Assembly: GCF_030145145.1 (NCBI RefSeq)
Contig: NZ_JAQYWD010000003.1
Coordinates: forward strand, 124,001-188,000
Length of the DNA: 64,000 nt
Direction of reading: 5' to 3'
Source of the DNA: Desulfobacula sp.
GTDB lineage: Bacteria; Desulfobacterota; Desulfobacteria; Desulfobacterales; Desulfobacteraceae
A program made the translations under genes and the position numbers. Positions 1,594-10,659 of the stretch are shown here, piece after piece (position 1 is the stretch's first letter; every line of letters starts with the position of its first letter). The notes beneath the pieces are model-generated. The model did no database searches and was not told where the DNA came from. It worked only from the letters and a program-made list of their open reading frames with translations.

Positions 1594-2502
1594 TTATTTC
1601 AACCCAGCCTGCGTCACAAGCTGTTCCACAACCGCTTCCCATTCAATGGCCATAATATGAACCCCGTGGACTCCGGTGAGTTCTTTGAGCGTTTCAATGG
1701 TTTCAAGGCAAATTTTGATGCCTTCATCGGCCTGGTATTGTTTGTCAACGCCGTCCATGCGTTTGATGATCTCATCGGGCACATCCATGCCGGCCACTTT
1801 TTTGTTCATATACCTGGCCATACCTGCGGATCGTAACGGGGTGACCCCCCCGAGGATGTATACCTTCTCTGTCAGTCCTTCATCATTGGCCCGCCTGATC
1901 CATTCTTTAAACCGGTCCATATTGTAGATACACTGGGTCTGGATAAAATCCGCCCCGGCATCAATTTTTTTGGCCAGTCGAATCACCCGGTAGTCAAAGG
2001 GGTCGGCAAACGGGTTGGCTGCTGCACCAATAAACATCTGTGGCGCCACATCCAGATCAAACCCGCTCATGTCTTTTCCGGTGTTCCGCATGTCTCTCAC
2101 TGTCCGGATCAGATTCACCGAGTCGATGTCAAAGACATTCATGGCATCCGGCTGACTGCCGAATTTCTGATGGTCGCCGGACAGGCATAAAATATTTTTG
2201 ATGCCCAGGGAATAGGCGCCCATGATATCCGATTGAATGGCAATCCGGTTCCGGTCCCTGACCACCATCTGCATTACCGGTTCCAGACCTGCGGCAACCA
2301 CATGGGCAGCGGCGGCAATACTGGACATCCTGACAATGGCGGTCTGGTTGTCAGTGACATTTACCGCATCCACAAACCCATTCAGCAGGGTTATTTTGTT
2401 GTCAATGACGTCTTTGTTGGAACCCCTTGGGGGGCCACATTCTCCTGTTATGGCAAATTTACCCTGGGAAAGTTTCTCATGAAGTCGGCTAAGGGGTTTC
2501 AT
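1594..2502 (-). CDS. metF: Methylenetetrahydrofolate reductase, MetF
   Basis: 302 residues with the full-length MTHFR barrel: an early GECGPPRG segment, NVTDNQ, ILCLSGDH and the late FIQTQCIYN and ILGGVTPLRSAG segments. The enzyme interconverts 5,10-methylene- and 5-methyl-tetrahydrofolate in the methyl branch of the Wood-Ljungdahl pathway. The start codon overlaps the end of metV by 4 bp (ATGA), which indicates translational coupling. MetF with MetV is the two-subunit type known from acetogens, where electrons may come through Hdr/MvhD-type partners. The neighbouring mvhD-like gene fits that model. Confidence 0.92.
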   Translation of the reverse strand: MKPLSRLHEKLSQGKFAITGECGPPRGSNKDVIDNKITLLNGFVDAVNVTDNQTAIVRMSSIAAAAHVVAAGLEPVMQMVVRDRNRIAIQSDIMGAYSLGIKNILCLSGDHQKFGSQPDAMNVFDIDSVNLIRTVRDMRNTGKDMSGFDLDVAPQMFIGAAANPFADPFDYRVIRLAKKIDAGADFIQTQCIYNMDRFKEWIRRANDEGLTEKVYILGGVTPLRSAGMARYMNKKVAGMDVPDEIIKRMDGVDKQYQADEGIKICLETIETLKELTGVHGVHIMAIEWEAVVEQLVTQAGLK

Positions 2503-3167
2503 ATGATATGGTCCTCCCTGATCAGTTTTCTGGGTCCGCCGGAAAGACTGGTATTCCAGTTCTTTGGGGGGATATAAGTTTTCAGGTTATCCAATTGCCC
2601 TAAAGTGGTCAGTCGTTCAATAATCAGGTGCCAGGCGCAGGGGGTATCCGGATCAATTTCACACACGCCGTTCTGGGAGCCGCCGCAGGGACCATTGAGT
2701 AATTTTTTGGCACATCGGGTGACCGGACAGACCCCGCCAAATATGGCCAGGCTGCAATTGCCACACCCGGAGCATTCTTCGGTGAAAATGCCGGGACTTT
2801 CCTGAATGCCGATAAAAGTGGTATTCACCCCGGGCAATACCACCTCTTTTGCAAAGCGCTTTGCCATGGCCTGAACACCGGCACCACAGGCAAGGGAAAG
2901 GATGGCCTCATTTCTGGCAATCCCGGGGGATGCTTCCTGAATAAATTCGTTTTCACACTGGCGTTCAATGGTCAGTTCTTCTATGTCAATGGATTTTGCC
3001 ATTTGTTTAAAACTGAGTCGTAGGGCAGACGCGAGGACGGCCACTTCGTCTTCGCCACCGGCAAAACATGTTTTTACACAGGTGCCGCAGCCAAGGATGA
3101 GAACCTTTTTATAGGGTTCTACAAGTTTGATAATCTCATTAATGGGTTTTTGACTACCGGTTATCAT
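2499..3167 (-). CDS. metV: MetV, zinc/Fe-S partner of methylenetetrahydrofolate reductase
   Basis: 222 residues, the MetV family (often annotated as methylene-tetrahydrofolate reductase C-terminal domain protein). Visible features are the N-terminal CGTCVKTC motif, the central CSGCGNCSLAIFGGVCPVTRC cysteine cluster and the LNGPCGG segment that is highly conserved in this family. It forms a complex with MetF and is thought to relay electrons to its flavin. It overlaps metF by 4 bp. A 176-bp gap holding a long inverted repeat separates it from the mvhD-like gene upstream. Confidence 0.9.
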   Translation of the reverse strand: MITGSQKPINEIIKLVEPYKKVLILGCGTCVKTCFAGGEDEVAVLASALRLSFKQMAKSIDIEELTIERQCENEFIQEASPGIARNEAILSLACGAGVQAMAKRFAKEVVLPGVNTTFIGIQESPGIFTEECSGCGNCSLAIFGGVCPVTRCAKKLLNGPCGGSQNGVCEIDPDTPCAWHLIIERLTTLGQLDNLKTYIPPKNWNTSLSGGPRKLIREDHII

Positions 3168-3343: not shown

Positions 3344-3748
3344 TTAATTCAAATGATTTAAAGCGGGATTCGGGCCAATCGTTTCAAGCGCCACTAATGT
3401 TTTTTGGATGATATCTGTAATCGCCCTGCTGTCTTTTGCAGTGGTGTTGAATATGCTCAAGCGCCTGCCATCCATTCCAATATCATCTAAAATGGTTTTT
3501 ACATAATCGACCCGTTTTTTTGCCCGTATGCTGCCCTGGGCATATCGACAGCCTTTATCCGGGCAGACCAGCACTAGGACGGCGTCTGAACCGGCTTCAA
3601 ATGCTCTTAAGAGGTGGATATCTTTTGTCATTGAAGCGCATGCCATCTTAACGGTTTTGACCTGGCAATTGTCAAACATTGAAGGGGTTTCTTCAAAAGA
3701 ATTGATACAATGAAACAGCGTAAGTTTTGGTGTGTTATGGATTTCCAT
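3344..3748 (-). CDS. MvhD-type hydrogenase/heterodisulfide reductase iron-sulfur subunit
   Basis: 134 residues of the FrhD/MvhD delta-subunit family (hydrogenase iron-sulfur subunit), which normally passes electrons between a dehydrogenase or hydrogenase and HdrA. The family pattern is visible in KMACASMTKDIHLLRAFEAGSDAVLVLVCPDKGCRY and in the KKRVDYVKTILDDIGMDGRRL segment. The N-terminal cysteine pair usual in the family (CNWC-like) is reduced to a single Cys at FHCINSF, so the cluster may be altered. It is the first gene behind the promoter and ANTAR-type leader, and the metV, metF and FMN/Fe-S genes follow. Confidence 0.85.
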   Translation of the reverse strand: MEIHNTPKLTLFHCINSFEETPSMFDNCQVKTVKMACASMTKDIHLLRAFEAGSDAVLVLVCPDKGCRYAQGSIRAKKRVDYVKTILDDIGMDGRRLSIFNTTAKDSRAITDIIQKTLVALETIGPNPALNHLN

Positions 3749-3770: not shown

Positions 3771-3814
3771 AAAAAAAGGCCTTCGCCCAAGTCATAATTT
3801 GGGAAAACGCCTTT
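3771..3814 (-). terminator. Intrinsic terminator inside the mvhD operon leader (attenuator)
   Basis: Read on the minus strand from 3814: AAAGGC, GTTTT, CCCAA, an 8-base loop, TTGGG, CGAAG, GCCTTT, then a run of T residues. The outer 6 bp and inner 5 bp pair perfectly, with a partly paired middle. It lies after the promoter and before the mvhD-like start codon, so by default it should stop transcription of the whole operon. Its 5' arm is shared with the second ANTAR-type hairpin, making the two structures mutually exclusive. Confidence 0.85.
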
Positions 3815-3849
3815 GTTTTCTTCTAACCTTGCCAATACGCCATTGTATT
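3803..3849 (-). promoter_or_regulatory. Two-hairpin ANTAR-type antiterminator RNA
   Basis: On the minus-strand transcript, hairpin P1 (3849-3834) is AAUAC, loop AAUGGC, GUAUU. Hairpin P2 (3820-3803) is GAAAAC, loop AAAGGC, GUUUUC. Both loops are six bases with A at position 1 and G at position 4, the signature recognised by ANTAR proteins. P1 begins only a few bases after the predicted transcription start. P2 uses the bases that form the 5' arm of the following terminator. A GAF-ANTAR protein bound to P1/P2 would block the terminator. Hairpins are seen; recognition by the protein at 4780-5511 is inferred. Confidence 0.82.
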
Positions 3850-3860
3850 CAGCAATAAAC

Positions 3861-3889
3861 AGATTAAAGGGTATTGTTTGAAATGTCAA
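3861..3889 (-). promoter_or_regulatory. Sigma70-type promoter of the mvhD-metV-metF operon
   Basis: On the minus strand TTGACA (3889-3884), a 17-bp spacer, and TAATCT (3866-3861). The -35 is a perfect match and the -10 a good one. Transcription would begin near 3854, immediately ahead of the P1 hairpin. Confidence 0.8.
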
Positions 3890-4779: not shown

Positions 4780-5511
4780 TTAAGGCGACTCATTATTGAA
4801 GATTTCATTGGAAAGAATCACGGCTTCTGCCACTTCTCGAATGGATTTTCTTGAATCCATGCTTCTTTTCCGGATCCAGCCATAGGCTTCATCACCAGTC
4901 ATCTGTCGATTGTGCATGAGAACCTCTTTGGCTTGTTCGATTTTTTTACGGGCTTCCAATTCTTCCTGGATGACCTTTGTTTTTACCATGAGTTCCGTGT
5001 TGACGATGGCAATGGCCGACTGATTGGCAACCGCTCTTAACAGGTTGACTTCTGTATCGGAAAAGTCATGGGGTGTGGCGGTAAAACAATTTAACACCCC
5101 AATGACTTTTTCTTCTTTTGCAACTAAAGGGATACCCACCATGGAAACAAGGCCCAATTTTTTGGCCATTTCTTTTTCTTTAAAGAGATCGGATTCCAAT
5201 ACATCCAAAAGGACTAAGGGCTTTTTGTGTGTTACCACAAACCCGACAACGCCTTCATCCAGACCCAGGGCCCGGTCGATGATATAATCCGGAGAAATGG
5301 ACTGGGTTGCTTTCAGGCGGATTTTAGGCGGTTTTTCTTCTTCATTGACAATCCATAAAGAACAAATTTCAACACCGGTCACTTTTGCGGTTACCATCAC
5401 AATCAATTTTAGCAGATCTTCAATAAAAAGGTCCGAAGTGATTGCCCGGCTGATATCGGTCAACGCTTTTATGTAACCGTCATATGTCTGGTCATCATTA
5501 TTTTCCATCAT
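4780..5511 (-). CDS. GAF-ANTAR RNA-binding antiterminator
   Basis: 243 residues. A GAF sensor domain occupies about residues 22-172 (VTGVEICSLWIVNEEE, LGLDEGVVGFVVTHKKPLVL, VSMVGIPLVAKEEKVIGVLN). A coiled linker and a C-terminal ANTAR domain, about 186-236, follow (RKKIEQAKEVLMHNRQM, DEAYGWIRKRSMDSRKS). ANTAR proteins bind paired hexaloop RNA hairpins and prevent termination. The gene is the last of the split glutamate synthase operon, 75 bp after it. A matching RNA target lies about 1 kb away in the mvhD-metVF leader. The GAF ligand is unknown; nitrogen or redox status is a guess from context. Confidence 0.9.
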   Translation of the reverse strand: MMENNDDQTYDGYIKALTDISRAITSDLFIEDLLKLIVMVTAKVTGVEICSLWIVNEEEKPPKIRLKATQSISPDYIIDRALGLDEGVVGFVVTHKKPLVLLDVLESDLFKEKEMAKKLGLVSMVGIPLVAKEEKVIGVLNCFTATPHDFSDTEVNLLRAVANQSAIAIVNTELMVKTKVIQEELEARKKIEQAKEVLMHNRQMTGDEAYGWIRKRSMDSRKSIREVAEAVILSNEIFNNESP

Positions 5512-5586: not shown

Positions 5587-7917
5587 CTACATGGCTGTGT
5601 TGGGGATTAAATCCCATATCCCGCAGGGACAGGCCCCTTTACAGAATCCACAGCCAATACACAGATCTGAATTTACCCGATATTCAAATGCTTCCTTGTC
5701 GAATTCAATTCTTTCAATAGCCCCTTCCGGGCAAATGGCCACACAGATGCCACAATCCTTACAATTGCCACAGGAGGCGCAATCCGCACCGCAATCGCTG
5801 AGATTGTCAGCCTGTTTCTTTGGATTGTAATATTCAAGATGGATCCGCTGCTTGTCGATCCGGGGCAACGTTTCTGCAACATCAGGACGGTTGCCTTTTA
5901 TGATTTGATCAATACTCAGGGCTGCTTTTCTTCCAGCCCCAATGGCATCCGTGATAAGCCCCGGGCCCACCACATCTCCAATGGCGAACACCCGTGGGTC
6001 TGACGTCCGGTTGAATGGGTCCACGTCAATAAATCCGTTGTTAACGGTAATCGCATCATCAAGGAAGTCAAGGTCCGGAACATCCCCAATGGAGATCACC
6101 ACTGTATCTGCTTTCAGGATTTCACCATCCTGGAGCACCACCCCTTTTTTTGTGATTTTCTTTGTAAAGCAGGGCCATCTGAAAGTGGCACCAATGGCCT
6201 GGGCATCTTCTTTTTCTTTTCCAAAGGCTGCCGGTTTTTGAACGTCAATCAGGGTGATGGTTTCAGCTCCCAGGCGATGGGCTTCTGTTGCCACATCGCA
6301 TCCAACATTTCCCGCGCCGATGATCACCACATGTTTTCCTGGCTTTGCAATGTCTTTTTTTGATTGTTCAAGAAACGCATTGGCAAAGACGGCGGTTTCA
6401 ATGCCGGGGATTGGCAGGGACCTTGGTTTTTGTGACCCGGCTGCAACAATGGTAAAATCATAGTCATACTTGATTTTTGAAAATTCCTTGCTGTCAATGA
6501 CCTGGTTTAATTTTATATCCGATATCAATTCCCTGACCCGGTTGAGTTCTGCATCAAAGGTTTCTCCGGGCATTCTTGAACCGGGAATCACCGACGCTAT
6601 TTTTCCGCCAATGGCGCTGCCGGTATCAAACAAAGTAGGGGTATGGCCTTTCAGCGTTAAATGCCAGGCAGCCGAGATACCACCGGGTCCGGCACCGATG
6701 ACGGCAATTTTCTTTTTGCTCTTTTTAGCCGGTTTCGGCAGTTTGACGCGTTCTCCGGACTTTCCCAGGAGTCTCACATCAATGGGGGACATATACTGTT
6801 GATGCCGGGTGCAGGATGCCATACAGGGGCTGGGGCAGAGGTATCCGCAGACGGTTGCGGGAAACGGGGTGTATTCAAGACCCATACTGATGGCTTCGTC
6901 AATATTGTCCAGCCGCACCATCTTCCATCTTTCCCGGACAGGAATCCCTGTGGGGCAGGCTGCCTCACAAGGTGCCATATATTTTCCCTGTTCCCATACC
7001 GGAATGTACCGTCTTAAATCGCCCCGGGTAATCAGGGGAAGGATTTCTTTTTCCGTTTCCTGGAGATCTCCGATAAGGCCGCCCCGGCCAAGTTCTTTGT
7101 CCCAGACCTGTTCTCTGAACCAGGACATGGACGGTTTCTCCGGTTCATCGGTTTTTTCCAGGGCCGATTTTGCTTCAATGAGCTGCCATTGGGAGCGGTT
7201 GGAGAACGCGGGTAATTGATCGCTGTGATGGATTTTTTCCAGGAAAGCCGCCAGGTTGGTGAGAAGCCAGTTCCATTGTTCATCTGACACGTCAGACAAT
7301 TTGGCATCTTTTTTAGAAAATCCTTCCACACTGCCCCGGACAAAGACTTTGCCCCCCACCATTCCGATAAGGGGTCTGTACCCTAAGATCTGATCTTCCG
7401 GGGCTGCCGTGTGACCGCAGATAACCGCAATTCCACCGGCCATGAATTCTCCAAAATAATCCCCGGCAGATCCCAGTACCCAGAGTTCCGGCGGTTCAAA
7501 TCTCGGGTTTCGCTTGGTCATGGTCATGCCCCGGGCACCAATGGAACCGCCAATATAGACCTTGCCCTGGGCCGCACCATTCATGACACCATTGGAGGCA
7601 TTGCCGTGGACGATAATTTCGGCACCGGCATTCAGCCAGCCAATATCATCCGAGGCCGGTCCCATGATTTCGATCCGGGTATTTGCATGGCCGAAAGATC
7701 CCGCTCTCTGCCCGGATTGGCCGATGATCCGGATATAGGTTTTTTCTGTCCCTGCATCCCAGAGTCTTCCGCCGATACCGTGTTGTCCAAATCCTTCTAC
7801 TTCAATGTTTCTGCGACCGTTTTTTATATGGCGATGAATGATCTCTTCCAAAACCCTGGAAGAAATTCGATGGCCTTCTTTTTTGCCGGATATTTTAATA
7901 AATGCATCTTTTTTCAT
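5587..7917 (-). CDS. Glutamate synthase: GXGXG domain fused to NAD(P)-dependent small subunit and ferredoxin
   Basis: 776 residues, a fusion in this order: a GXGXG beta-helix domain (about 1-210; repeated G-x-G-x-G, GGSIGARGMTM), the GltD-like Fe-S N-terminal domain (CEAACPTGIPVRE near 317, CGYLCPSPC), a flavoprotein with two nucleotide-binding motifs (VIGAGPGGISAAW near 405, VIIGAGNVGCDVA near 533) and a GDV-type FAD end, then a two-cluster ferredoxin (last about 70 residues, CGNCKDCGICVAICP and CIGCGFCKGACP). It supplies electrons for glutamate formation and the domain that links the other subunits. The start is 13 bp after the FMN-subunit stop. Confidence 0.92.
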   Translation of the reverse strand: MKKDAFIKISGKKEGHRISSRVLEEIIHRHIKNGRRNIEVEGFGQHGIGGRLWDAGTEKTYIRIIGQSGQRAGSFGHANTRIEIMGPASDDIGWLNAGAEIIVHGNASNGVMNGAAQGKVYIGGSIGARGMTMTKRNPRFEPPELWVLGSAGDYFGEFMAGGIAVICGHTAAPEDQILGYRPLIGMVGGKVFVRGSVEGFSKKDAKLSDVSDEQWNWLLTNLAAFLEKIHHSDQLPAFSNRSQWQLIEAKSALEKTDEPEKPSMSWFREQVWDKELGRGGLIGDLQETEKEILPLITRGDLRRYIPVWEQGKYMAPCEAACPTGIPVRERWKMVRLDNIDEAISMGLEYTPFPATVCGYLCPSPCMASCTRHQQYMSPIDVRLLGKSGERVKLPKPAKKSKKKIAVIGAGPGGISAAWHLTLKGHTPTLFDTGSAIGGKIASVIPGSRMPGETFDAELNRVRELISDIKLNQVIDSKEFSKIKYDYDFTIVAAGSQKPRSLPIPGIETAVFANAFLEQSKKDIAKPGKHVVIIGAGNVGCDVATEAHRLGAETITLIDVQKPAAFGKEKEDAQAIGATFRWPCFTKKITKKGVVLQDGEILKADTVVISIGDVPDLDFLDDAITVNNGFIDVDPFNRTSDPRVFAIGDVVGPGLITDAIGAGRKAALSIDQIIKGNRPDVAETLPRIDKQRIHLEYYNPKKQADNLSDCGADCASCGNCKDCGICVAICPEGAIERIEFDKEAFEYRVNSDLCIGCGFCKGACPCGIWDLIPNTAM

Positions 7918-7930
7918 TGTTCACCCCTCC

Positions 7931-9565
7931 TTACACCACATACTTTATACTGAGGCGTTGCGCTGCAGCATGATCATCAATTCCAAGGGCATCGGACATA
8001 CCTATGGGAAGGGATGTTGAGCGACCCAGTGGGGCCACGATCTTTTTAAGCTCCGTATCAAAGGAGATAAACAGATCAACGATTCTCTGGGCAACATCCT
8101 CAGGGTCAAGCCGTCTGTAAAGTCTCGGGTCCTGGGAGGTGATGCCCTTTGGGCAAATGCCCACATTGCATACATTGCACCGGTCTTCTTCCGTTCCCAC
8201 ACAACCGGCCGCCGCCTGCATGACATATTTTCCAATTTGAACCCCACTGGCCCCCATCATGATCAATGCTGCGGCATTGGCTGCAAGATTCCCATTTTTC
8301 CCGATCCCGCCCCCGGCAAAGATGGGGATTTCATTCTGCTTTCCAATTTTGATCAGGTTCAGGTAATTGTCTCTGATGCAGGAGGCAATGGGGTGACCCA
8401 TGTGGTCCATGGAAACCGTATAGGCGGCTCCCGTGCCCCCGTCCTCACCGTCAATGGCAAGCCCGGATGCAAAATCATTACGGGTCAGGTTGTTCAATAC
8501 GGCCAGGGATGTGGAAGAGGCGGATATCTTTGGATATACCGGTACCCTGAACCCCCAGGCCATGGACATGGACTGGAGCATTTTTGCCACAGACTCTTCT
8601 ATGGAGTACTGGGTCTGATGGGTCGGCGGGCTGGGCAGGCTGATCCCCGGGGGAACGCCCCGGATGGCGGCAATCAGTTTATTGACCTTATGCCACATCA
8701 ACAATCCGCCATCGCCCGGTTTTGCCCCCTGGCCATATTTTATTTCAATGGCACAGGGGTCTTCTTTCATGTGGGGAATGGCATGGATGATTTCATCCCA
8801 TCCAAAATACCCCGAGGCAATCTGGAGAATGACATATTTTAAAAACCTGGACCGTAACAGCCGTGGCGGGCAACCGCCTTCCCCGGTGCAGATCCGGACC
8901 GGCATCCCCATCTCCTCATTCAGATAGGCCACCCCCATCTGAAGGCCTTCCCACATGCTGGGAGACAGCGCACCAAAAGACATTCCACCAATGATTAACG
9001 GATAGATTTCTCTGACCGGCGGAATCCAGCCTTTTTCTTTTAACCGTTTCATGTTTTCCCTGGGGGAGAGGACCCGTCCCAGAAGGGTTCTCATTTCAAA
9101 TTCATGGCGGCCGGCATCCAGAGCCGGATCAGTGAGCATGGAGATCCGGGTAAATTTGATCCGGTCCAGTATGGATTGGGAAGAATTCCTTCTGCCGCCT
9201 CGTCTTCGGGGAATACCCTTTTGGTTGATATGGAATTTGAGCCGGTCCAGTCCTGGGTTTTTCACCGGGGCAATGGCATCATTGGGACAGACCATGGTAC
9301 ACATGGCGCACCCGATACAGGCGTTTTCCACCCGGGTTTTCTGGCGGATGCCGTAAAACGTGTCATATTGGTTGGAATGGGGGGTGTCTTGTTGAATGGA
9401 TATTTTAACCATCCTTTTTTGAAACACCTTCAGTTCAATGGCCTGGACAGGGCAGACAGCGGTACATTGGCCGCACAGGGTGCACCGATCATTGCTGTAA
9501 CGGATCTGCCAGGGCAGATCATTCAGGCTTAAAGAGGAAGGTTCAAGGCTTCTGTTTGACGACAT
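7931..9565 (-). CDS. gltB: Glutamate synthase, ferredoxin-FMN central subunit
   Basis: 544 residues. The N-terminus holds a two-cluster ferredoxin (CTLCGQCTAVCP and CIGCAMCTMVCP, within residues 28-110). The remainder is the FMN barrel of archaeal-type glutamate synthase (IIGGMSFGALSPSMWEGLQ, GEGGCPPRLLRSRF, KYGQGAKPGDGGLL, IDGEDGGTGAAY, AGGGIGKNGNLAANAA), ending in a CNVCNVGICPKGITSQDP cluster. It makes two glutamates from 2-oxoglutarate with ammonia delivered by the amidotransferase subunit. It overlaps the preceding gene by 37 bp, implying tight coupling. Confidence 0.93.
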   Translation of the reverse strand: MSSNRSLEPSSLSLNDLPWQIRYSNDRCTLCGQCTAVCPVQAIELKVFQKRMVKISIQQDTPHSNQYDTFYGIRQKTRVENACIGCAMCTMVCPNDAIAPVKNPGLDRLKFHINQKGIPRRRGGRRNSSQSILDRIKFTRISMLTDPALDAGRHEFEMRTLLGRVLSPRENMKRLKEKGWIPPVREIYPLIIGGMSFGALSPSMWEGLQMGVAYLNEEMGMPVRICTGEGGCPPRLLRSRFLKYVILQIASGYFGWDEIIHAIPHMKEDPCAIEIKYGQGAKPGDGGLLMWHKVNKLIAAIRGVPPGISLPSPPTHQTQYSIEESVAKMLQSMSMAWGFRVPVYPKISASSTSLAVLNNLTRNDFASGLAIDGEDGGTGAAYTVSMDHMGHPIASCIRDNYLNLIKIGKQNEIPIFAGGGIGKNGNLAANAAALIMMGASGVQIGKYVMQAAAGCVGTEEDRCNVCNVGICPKGITSQDPRLYRRLDPEDVAQRIVDLFISFDTELKKIVAPLGRSTSLPIGMSDALGIDDHAAAQRLSIKYVV

Positions 9566-10659
9566 ATTTTTACCTCCTGGCGGTCAGGGCTGACAATTGC
9601 TGTATCAATGTGCATGGGTTGTATATCTTTTGTTGTATCCCGGTCCGGGATGACGGCATCAAGGCCGCAGATTTCAGAGGAAAATCCAAACAAACCGGCT
9701 TTTCCGCCAACAACACCCGGGCGAAGTTTTTTCCTGTCCTGGACCATGAAAAGGGAATGATCCGGCAGCGTACCGATGACGCAGTTGGGTCCATCAATAA
9801 TAAGGGGTCTGCACGTTCTTTTAAGATGGGCGAGAAATGGTGCATCCGGGTGTTGCTGAAGATCTTTTTCCTGCAAAGGGGTAATCACATGCTTGTACGC
9901 ATCAATCCCCATATCAAGGCCCACCATGGCATAATGAAGAATATGGGCAAACACCTCGGAATCGGACTGATATCCCATGTAGCCGGGGAAATCCCTTGAT
10001 GACAAAAAGTCCTTGATGGGGATAAATGCGGTGTTTTCTCCATTGGTCATGGTGCAGTAGCCATTGATAAAAAACGGGTGACAGGCATATAAATTGATGG
10101 CGTAATTCGTGTTTTGCCGGCCCTGGGCCATAATGATACGGGCATTCAGCTCTTTTCGATCCAGGCCCAGATAATCGGCCAGTTGCATGGGATCACCGAT
10201 TTCCTTGATCATGATGGTGTCCGGCCAGAAGGAAAAGACCATCATATCTTTTTTTTCTTCCCCCATTTCACGGATTTTCAACAGGATCATCATCAGTCTC
10301 TGGGAAATTTCGTCCGGTTCAAGAGTGTCCCAGTCCTCGGGTAGTTCATAGGCCCTGATCAGGTAAAGGTCCCGTTTGGGTATGCCCGGAACCGATTTTT
10401 TGGGCACTTTTAAAGTGATTTTGTATTTGGTAAGAAACCCCTTGTCCATCATAAAAAGGTCCAGGCGCCGAATCCCTTCTTCACTGAAGATACCGGATAA
10501 AATCGGTGCCTCTTTCATCTCTTCAAAGGGGCCGCCCAGATCCTGGAGCAAAAGCCCCATACCTGATCCGTCATGGCCTTCTTTCATCACATCAAGGGCT
10601 TTGATGGCAAGCATGGGAGACACGGGGTCCTTGCTGGTAAGCGCAAACAGACGACACAT
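9529..10659 (-). CDS. Glutamate synthase, class II glutamine amidotransferase subunit
   Basis: 376 residues beginning MCRLFAL. The cysteine after the initiator Met is the N-terminal nucleophile of class II glutamine amidotransferases once Met is removed. EGHDGSGMG, YAINLYACHPFFINGYCTMTNGEN and GYQSDSEVFAH match the family. It splits glutamine and channels ammonia to the FMN subunit. It is the first gene of the glutamate synthase operon; the ribosome site AAGGAG precedes the ATG. The leader holds a promoter and a degenerate copy of a MITE-like repeat. Confidence 0.92.
   Translation of the reverse strand: MCRLFALTSKDPVSPMLAIKALDVMKEGHDGSGMGLLLQDLGGPFEEMKEAPILSGIFSEEGIRRLDLFMMDKGFLTKYKITLKVPKKSVPGIPKRDLYLIRAYELPEDWDTLEPDEISQRLMMILLKIREMGEEKKDMMVFSFWPDTIMIKEIGDPMQLADYLGLDRKELNARIIMAQGRQNTNYAINLYACHPFFINGYCTMTNGENTAFIPIKDFLSSRDFPGYMGYQSDSEVFAHILHYAMVGLDMGIDAYKHVITPLQEKDLQQHPDAPFLAHLKRTCRPLIIDGPNCVIGTLPDHSLFMVQDRKKLRPGVVGGKAGLFGFSSEICGLDAVIPDRDTTKDIQPMHIDTAIVSPDRQEVKICRQTEALNLPL

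Follow-up and report, generated by a model that had tools for sequence, protein, structure and literature searches.

The leader RNA that precedes an mvhD-headed operon of Desulfobacula sp. is, with high probability, an ANTAR-target RNA that would gate a glutamate-synthase operon by transcription antitermination, with a neighbouring GAF-ANTAR protein as its regulator; this reading is drawn from sequence comparison and folding. All positions refer to the window, i.e., the whole 64,000-nt stretch of DNA that was analysed (Table 1). A preliminary description of the window had proposed an ANTAR-type leader, and the comparison with relatives strengthened this proposal, as the predicted RNA is conserved, its two loops keep A at position 1 (A1) and G at position 4 (G4), and its stems covary over 63 RNAs. 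The class of target genes named there, Wood-Ljungdahl and electron-transfer genes, had to be revised: mvhD, metV, and metF head an operon with three glutamate-synthase-like genes. The leader is best read as an element of glutamate/nitrogen control and not of Wood-Ljungdahl carbon metabolism, because the operon continues into glutamate-synthase-like genes and the other copies of the RNA mostly precede such genes; the target, first seen as a departure from the nitrogen theme of ANTAR control, is thus no exception to it.

The leader and its operon

Table 1. Features of the leader, of the operon behind it and of the GAF-ANTAR gene run, in window positions
Feature	Position	Strand	Evidence or remark
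-35 element TTGACA	3884..3889	-	sequence; position near-constant in family leaders
-10 element TAATCT	3861..3866	-	sequence; 17-nt spacer from TTGACA
P1 hairpin	3830..3854	-	hexaloop AAUGGC (3844-3839), A1, G4; closing pairs A-U, C-G
Linker P1-P2, 9 nt	3821..3829	-	counted from fold of extended P1
P2 hairpin (predicted antiterminator)	3803..3820	-	hexaloop AAAGGC (3814-3809), A1, G4
Intrinsic terminator	3771..3814	-	stem 3814-3775 plus U tract to about 3771; mutually exclusive with P2
mvhD-like gene (FlpD/MvhD family), first of the operon	3344..3748	-	PF02662, 72 bits
metV-like gene (methylene-THF reductase C-terminal family)	2499..3167	-	PF12225, 125.7 bits
metF-like gene, methylene-THF reductase	1594..2502	-	PF02219, 137.6 bits
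Fe-S / glutamate-synthase-like protein, 472 aa	156..1574	-	PF01645, 52.5 bits
GAF-ANTAR protein, proposed cognate antiterminator	4780..5511	-	PF03861, 68.7 bits (cut-off 27.3); PF13185, 67 bits
Glutamate synthase GXGXG domain plus pyridine-nucleotide oxidoreductase	5587..7917	-	same run as GAF-ANTAR gene
Glutamate synthase FMN domain protein	7931..9565	-	PF01645, 198.2 bits; same run
376-aa protein, heads the run	9529..10659	-	no Pfam or NCBIfam match

The promoter and the two hexaloop hairpins were present as first described, the hairpins being recovered in the sequence, in the fold and by a motif scan. The promoter lies 34-37 nt 5' of the modelled RNA in 15 of the 16 leaders of the family, where it reads TTGACA (14 leaders) or TTGACT (one), 17 nt, and TANNNT; the single family leader without this placement belongs to genome G060 (locus L019). 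P1 has the form AAUAC-AAUGGC-GUAUU and is lengthened by UGCU/GGCA, with one bulged G, to 9 bp overall, and P2 (GAAAAC-AAAGGC-GUUUUC) has 6 bp, where an ANTAR-target RNA needs no fewer than 3 bp per hairpin; the closing base pairs AC...GU are present in both. The inner 5-bp stems are 14 nt apart in the window leader and up to 26 nt apart in relatives. As had also been noted early on, P2 shares bases with the terminator, whose 5' arm begins at base 1 of the P2 loop and uses this loop and the P2 3' arm. Every computable feature of an ANTAR-target RNA, as defined in excerpts of PMC3369931, is found in this leader.

Left unconstrained, the leader folds into the terminator (MFE -27.0 kcal/mol, z -2.75; 3 of 200 shuffled sequences do as well), whereas P2 forms when pairing of the terminator 3' arm is forbidden, at -13.4 kcal/mol; the terminator by itself reaches -17.2 kcal/mol. 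On the strength of this difference between -27.0 and -13.4, termination is the predicted default, and P2 would need help to form. Both strands of the window were scanned for pairs of A1/G4 hexaloop hairpins with stems of 5 bp or more and a spacing of 3-30 nt; the one site returned was this leader. A slightly stricter rule gave 2.2 sites per 0.97 Mb of Markov-shuffled DNA of other loci. A scanner for consensus promoters and terminators reported neither at the leader, because it needs at least four of six matches per hexamer (TAATCT has three) and an uninterrupted stem. With Rfam release 15, no match was obtained in the window at the gathering score; seven matches of a relaxed-E search fell in unrelated families (best E 0.31) and were set aside.

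The operon does not end with the window. On the contig, past window base 1, it runs on with a 514-aa glutamate synthase FMN domain protein and an 874-aa GATase-GXGXG protein, so that its order is mvhD-metV-metF-gltX-gltFMN-gltGAT, with three glutamate-synthase-like genes. The same gene order is found in 16 other loci of the family, as far as contigs extend. The Fe-S nature of the 472-aa protein was read by eye from its cysteine motifs. Pfam scans detected no pyridine-nucleotide oxidoreductase domain in the three glutamate-synthase-like proteins of this operon, while the separate glutamate synthase set at 5587-10659 does have one, and no hdrABC genes are found in the mvhD operon. MvhD and MetV may provide the electron input for the glutamate synthase.

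The distribution of the operon outside the family was followed with the 514-aa protein as query, which has matches in 69 of 291 genomes of the order; 40 loci from outside the family, of 70-80% identity, were taken, and mvhD is present in 30 of these. Between metV and the glutamate-synthase-like genes, metF is missing in 5 of the 30 (G267, G182, G167, G134, and G216, three of which represent one genus), and mvhD-metV-gltX-gltFMN are retained there. The core is therefore mvhD-metV-glt, which makes the Wood-Ljungdahl label a weak one for this operon. These observations bear on the possibility that the leader governs one-carbon (Wood-Ljungdahl) flux, with the methylene-THF reductase as its real target and the glutamate synthase genes as passengers. 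Three of the genes concerned do head the operon, and Moorella thermoacetica is reported, in excerpts of PMC9012536, to have a MetFV-HdrABC-MvhD complex. Yet the absence of metF from 5 of the 30 loci, the other metV paralogs of this genome (five MetV matches, this one included), and the placement of the other RNAs mostly before glutamate-synthase-like genes all argue the other way, and we regard control of one-carbon flux as unlikely.

Conservation of the RNA and its targets

A search of 86 family genomes with MetV as the query gave 17 close orthologs (76-100% identity, own included), and dual A1/G4 hairpins precede mvhD in 16 of the 17 loci (again with its own), the terminators below these 16 leaders being judged by eye. 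A covariance model, R1, was built on 15 leaders and found more copies in the family; a wider model, R2, comprises 35 RNAs. The one locus without the hairpins is that of G085 (88% complete), a genome that is also without an ANTAR gene and in which R1 gave no RNA. The comparison of relatives for covarying A1/G4 hairpins, which the preliminary description had proposed as a check, came out in favour of an ANTAR-type RNA, though the 15 closest leaders show little covariation, because P2 hardly varies: one pair changed on both sides, which 245 of 500 shuffles also reached. In the set of 35 RNAs, pairing is kept in 95.2% of cells, and changes on both sides are seen in 80 cells, versus 26.7 (sd 4.3) after shuffling, and over 63 RNAs the figures are 186 versus 52.3 (sd 8.7), where cells count sequences and not events.

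The loops could be parsed in 62 of the 63 RNAs. P1 has A1 in 62/62 and G4 in 61/62; P2 has A1 and G4 in 59/62 each, a conservation that is confounded for the P2 loop because it pairs in the terminator, P1 being free of this. The parser left L163 unread and misread L142 (both hairpins) as well as L212 and L227 (P2); with wrong parses removed, the counts become 61/61 (A1) and 60/61 (G4) for P1 and 58/59 and 59/59 for P2. Loop counts among model matches are biased because the models contain A1/G4, while the position of the RNA beside the GAF-ANTAR gene is an unbiased observation. As parsed, the closing pairs are kept to a similar extent (C-G in 61/62 and A-U in 61/62 for P1; 60/62 and 61/62 for P2). 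Deviants include L212, whose P1 loop is without G4, L142, where P1 has no clean hexaloop, and L163, with a mismatch in P1. The overlap of P2 with the terminator extends to relatives as well: by an exact-pairing rule, 50/62 RNAs have a terminator arm paired to the loop or the 3' arm of P2, versus 121/3150 control positions.

In the 86 family genomes, R2 gave 47 matches at E <= 1e-3, in 26 genomes. Their targets are a 552-aa glutamate-synthase-like gene (PF01645) in 23 of the 47, the mvhD operon in 15, a gene for a small protein (146-167 aa, no Pfam match) in four, glutamate dehydrogenase in two (PF00208 seen for one of the two), and, in one case each, an aminotransferase IV/alanine racemase gene run, a TRAP transporter run (DctM, DctP), and a contig end. 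The genome of the window itself (G000) has three RNAs, i.e., the mvhD leader, the one before the aminotransferase, and one before the 552-aa gene. The aminotransferase RNA (L128, 5672-5725, plus strand) lies before a run of aminotransferase class IV, alanine racemase, PGA_cap, and D-Ala-D-Ala ligase-like genes, a surprising target for an ANTAR RNA. Before the TRAP transporter run of G081 stands an ANTAR-like RNA (L142, 7032-6976, minus strand) whose terminator is very strong. In L129-L132, the RNA before the small-protein gene is much like the mvhD leader (68-81 bits) and may be a recent duplication of it; in L129, the small-protein gene is followed by an ABC transporter run of the branched-chain amino acid type. 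Before glutamate dehydrogenase, dual A1/G4 hairpins are seen at L120 (1551-1501, minus strand) and L166 (509-460, minus strand) with no evident terminator, so that control may differ there. Judged by eye, the R1 matches L119, L121, L122, L123, L126, and L144 are unrelated, neither a leader nor a target gene being in place, and they were dropped; R2 matches L169, L170, L171, L174, and L175 were excluded likewise, as was a second match in L224.

Among the 30 mvhD loci from outside the family, the dual motif precedes mvhD in 18, of which 14 were found by a script, whose rule is also passed by 41 of 4000 stretches taken at random from these loci, and four by reading (L302, L314, L323, and L330). 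L302 and L330 have G instead of A at P1 loop position 1. An evident terminator, judged by eye, follows the motif in 17 of the 18, L318 being without a T run, and R2 at E <= 1 has matches before mvhD in only part of these loci. Ten of the other 12 loci have no leader, L298 is ambiguous, and L294 has too little upstream DNA. In L298, a P2-like hairpin just upstream of mvhD is immediately followed by a T run, so that P2 might act as a terminator there, and the first hairpin is degenerate. In L291, two complete modules of dual hairpins plus terminator stand in tandem, 235 and 139 nt upstream of mvhD, which resembles a double attenuator. A hand-made table of 28 of the 30 genomes (L294 and L298 excluded for upstream DNA and ambiguity, respectively) gives an ANTAR gene in 11/18 genomes with the mvhD leader versus 2/10 without it (Fisher p 0.055), which is no more than suggestive.

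The GAF-ANTAR protein as proposed regulator

The GAF-ANTAR gene pointed out in the preliminary description is well above the Pfam cut-off (Table 1). It is the last gene of a run on the same strand as the glutamate synthase set, headed by a 376-aa protein that, from its start, we take to be class II amidotransferase-like; a whole-genome RNA search detected no ANTAR RNA before this gene run. The ANTAR domain aligns without gaps to EutV, and 7 of the 11 RNA-contact residues given in excerpts of PMC8934654 are kept by hand comparison (R142, K143, K149, Y164, R168, M172, and R175), the differences being K147Q, E160G, N173D, and R177S. Among the contact residues kept are, by the description in those excerpts, the Met plug and the Tyr stacking on G4. 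In an AlphaFold model (8-row alignment, mean pLDDT 80.5), the GAF domain is accompanied by a long helix and by the helices of ANTAR; the best 50 PDB matches listed for it are domains of GAF type whose ligands are diverse, so that no ligand is indicated.

Co-occurrence and linkage both connect this protein to the RNA. With orthologs called at E below 1e-40, fragments included, GAF-ANTAR is found in 31 of the 86 family genomes. It is present in 23 of the 26 family genomes with the RNA, those without being G033 (81% complete), G034 (56%), and G074 (81%), and it is the sole ANTAR domain found in 17 of these 23 (RNA at E <= 1e-3). Eight of the 31 have no RNA at E <= 1e-3, three of which (G058, G059, and G060) have an RNA by weaker score or by eye. 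A wider set was formed from the best 80 GAF-ANTAR loci of named records, more of which exist; these belong to Desulfobacula, Desulfosarcina, Desulfobulbus, Desulfatitalea, Desulfosudis, and kin. R2 was applied to 64 loci, i.e., 63 of the best 80 (close kin excluded) plus L089, and matched at E <= 1 in 47, always on the strand of the GAF-ANTAR gene, with the RNA within 700 nt downstream of that gene in 43 of the 64; in the remaining 17 loci R2 gave no RNA. The largest ORF starting within 900 nt was taken as the target and compared with 12 reference proteins, and the closest reference is the 552-aa glutamate-synthase-like protein in 38 of the 47 (28 at 75-86% and 10 at 44-51% identity). The others are one glutamate dehydrogenase and one 1520-aa glutamate synthase, both Pfam-confirmed, and seven with none or another target.

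On the scale of the order, R2 matches at E <= 0.01 in 94 of 291 genomes and PF03861 in 166 of 291; an ANTAR gene is present in 80 of the 94 RNA genomes versus 86 of the 197 others (Fisher p 7e-12, kinship ignored). Among the matches listed, at least 37 RNAs share the strand of an ANTAR gene and stand 71-3276 nt downstream of it. When the 14 RNA genomes without an ANTAR gene in the assembly were searched directly, together with G241, 14 of these 15 had matches to the GAF domain, and no match covered an ANTAR domain; an assembly gap or another regulator may account for the missing domain. Linkage and co-occurrence strongly support the early suggestion of GAF-ANTAR as partner, and the protein is very probably the regulator of the leader.

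The window's genome encodes a second ANTAR protein, a REC-ANTAR protein on contig 51 (PF00072 105.7 bits, PF03861 79.1 bits). About 20 nt before the start of its gene, a scan paired two hairpins with A1/G4 hexaloops, the stem of one being weak (L001, 761-706, minus strand); they may be incidental, since a TTGACA sits between them, autoregulation being the alternative possibility. The leader could in principle be an ANTAR RNA that answers to this protein instead of GAF-ANTAR, all the more as EutV, a known antiterminator, is itself a response regulator. We hold this for very unlikely: the gene lies on a different contig from all three RNAs, the 17 RNA-bearing family genomes in which GAF-ANTAR is the only ANTAR domain found offer no such protein, and the RNA follows the GAF-ANTAR gene closely in the 43 loci counted above. 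As partner in most genomes, REC-ANTAR was rejected, GAF-ANTAR often being the sole ANTAR domain.

A further reading, likewise very unlikely, is an attenuator of another type in which the hexaloops would be incidental and the response would be to a small molecule, to translation of the leader, or to a different RNA-binding protein. The terminator is strong on its own and constrains the bases of P2, and the 14 RNA genomes without an ANTAR gene would fit such a mechanism. P1, however, is not part of the terminator and still shows a covarying stem and a loop with A1 and G4 preserved; the RNA is widely linked to an ANTAR gene, and the Rfam search described above provided no family at gathering score and nothing better than E 0.31 below it.

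Control by the GAF-ANTAR protein would then proceed as follows. Transcription would begin at the sigma-70-like promoter. As long as no active regulator is present, the loop and 3' arm of P2 are predicted by sequence and folding to pair downstream and form the terminator, with transcription stopping near 3771. A signal, likely nitrogen or glutamate status, would be sensed by the neighbouring GAF-ANTAR protein through its GAF domain, and the active ANTAR protein, by analogy with EutV, would hold P1 and then P2, thereby blocking the terminator and allowing the operon to be read. Other genes are probably gated by this protein as well, by way of similar RNAs; with the leader, this genome has three of them.

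Known systems and biological meaning

Desulfotomaculum reducens and D. acetoxidans belong to the Firmicutes. Excerpts of PMC3369931 (Ramesh et al., 2012) predict ANTAR RNAs at glutamate synthase genes of D. reducens, ANTAR control of nitrogen genes in D. acetoxidans, and such control of nitrogen genes widely; because of these predictions, both the kind of RNA described here and its nitrogen/glutamate theme are already known. The regulon proposed here resembles the one predicted for the two Desulfotomaculum species in having RNAs at glutamate synthase genes and several operons per genome, and section 10 of PMC3369931, where that regulon is treated, names no GAF-ANTAR partner. The leader is also like the Enterococcus faecalis eut/EutV system, as presented in parts of PMC3369931 and PMC8934654, in its two A1/G4 hexaloop hairpins with conserved closing pairs, in the overlap of P2 with an intrinsic terminator, and in its short linker (9 nt here, 5-12 nt in eut). 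It differs in its proposed regulator, a one-component GAF-ANTAR protein, whereas EutV is a REC-ANTAR protein working with a histidine kinase. Unlike in eut, the targets here are mostly glutamate-synthase-like genes.

NasR of Klebsiella oxytoca senses nitrate with another sensor domain. The proposed regulator is like NasR (PDB 4akk) in combining a sensor and an ANTAR output in one protein and in its nitrogen theme, and unlike it in having a single GAF domain. The operon, for its part, recalls two systems described in parts of PMC9012536: the MetFV-HdrABC-MvhD genes of M. thermoacetica, where mvhD is found together with metVF, and the FrhB-glutamate synthase clusters of ANME archaea, in which glutamate synthase subunits stand beside a foreign electron-input protein. 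It is distinguished from both by the joining of mvhD-metV(-metF) to a domain-split glutamate synthase and by the absence of hdrABC from the operon.

Among the matches listed in a search of the open-access literature, neither ANTAR control in Desulfobacterales nor a MetV/MvhD glutamate synthase was found; a single 'antar' match in the searched part of PMC11887813 was the word Antarctic and was discarded. Table S2 of PMC3369931, with matches from 1902 genomes, stands outside this comparison and may include some of these RNAs. As far as the open-access matches listed show, the one-component GAF-ANTAR partner, the order-wide conservation, and the mvhD-metV(-metF)-glutamate synthase target are new.

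A broader picture can be drawn tentatively, and we consider it possible rather than likely: throughout an order of sulfate reducers, a one-component GAF-ANTAR regulon would control the synthesis of glutamate, and its targets would include an unusual glutamate synthase fed via MvhD-MetV(-MetF). This module would replace the usual NAD(P)H-oxidising subunit, and ammonium assimilation would be fed directly by the oxidation of one-carbon units or by some other donor of low potential. The controlled operon points to a glutamate synthase whose electron source may be unusual. If antitermination by the GAF-ANTAR protein is true, an uncharacterised protein of sulfate reducers would gain an RNA target and a metabolic role, and the ligand of its GAF domain, probably a nitrogen-status signal, would become directly testable. 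ANTAR control of glutamate synthesis would then be widely conserved in sulfate-reducing Desulfobacterota.
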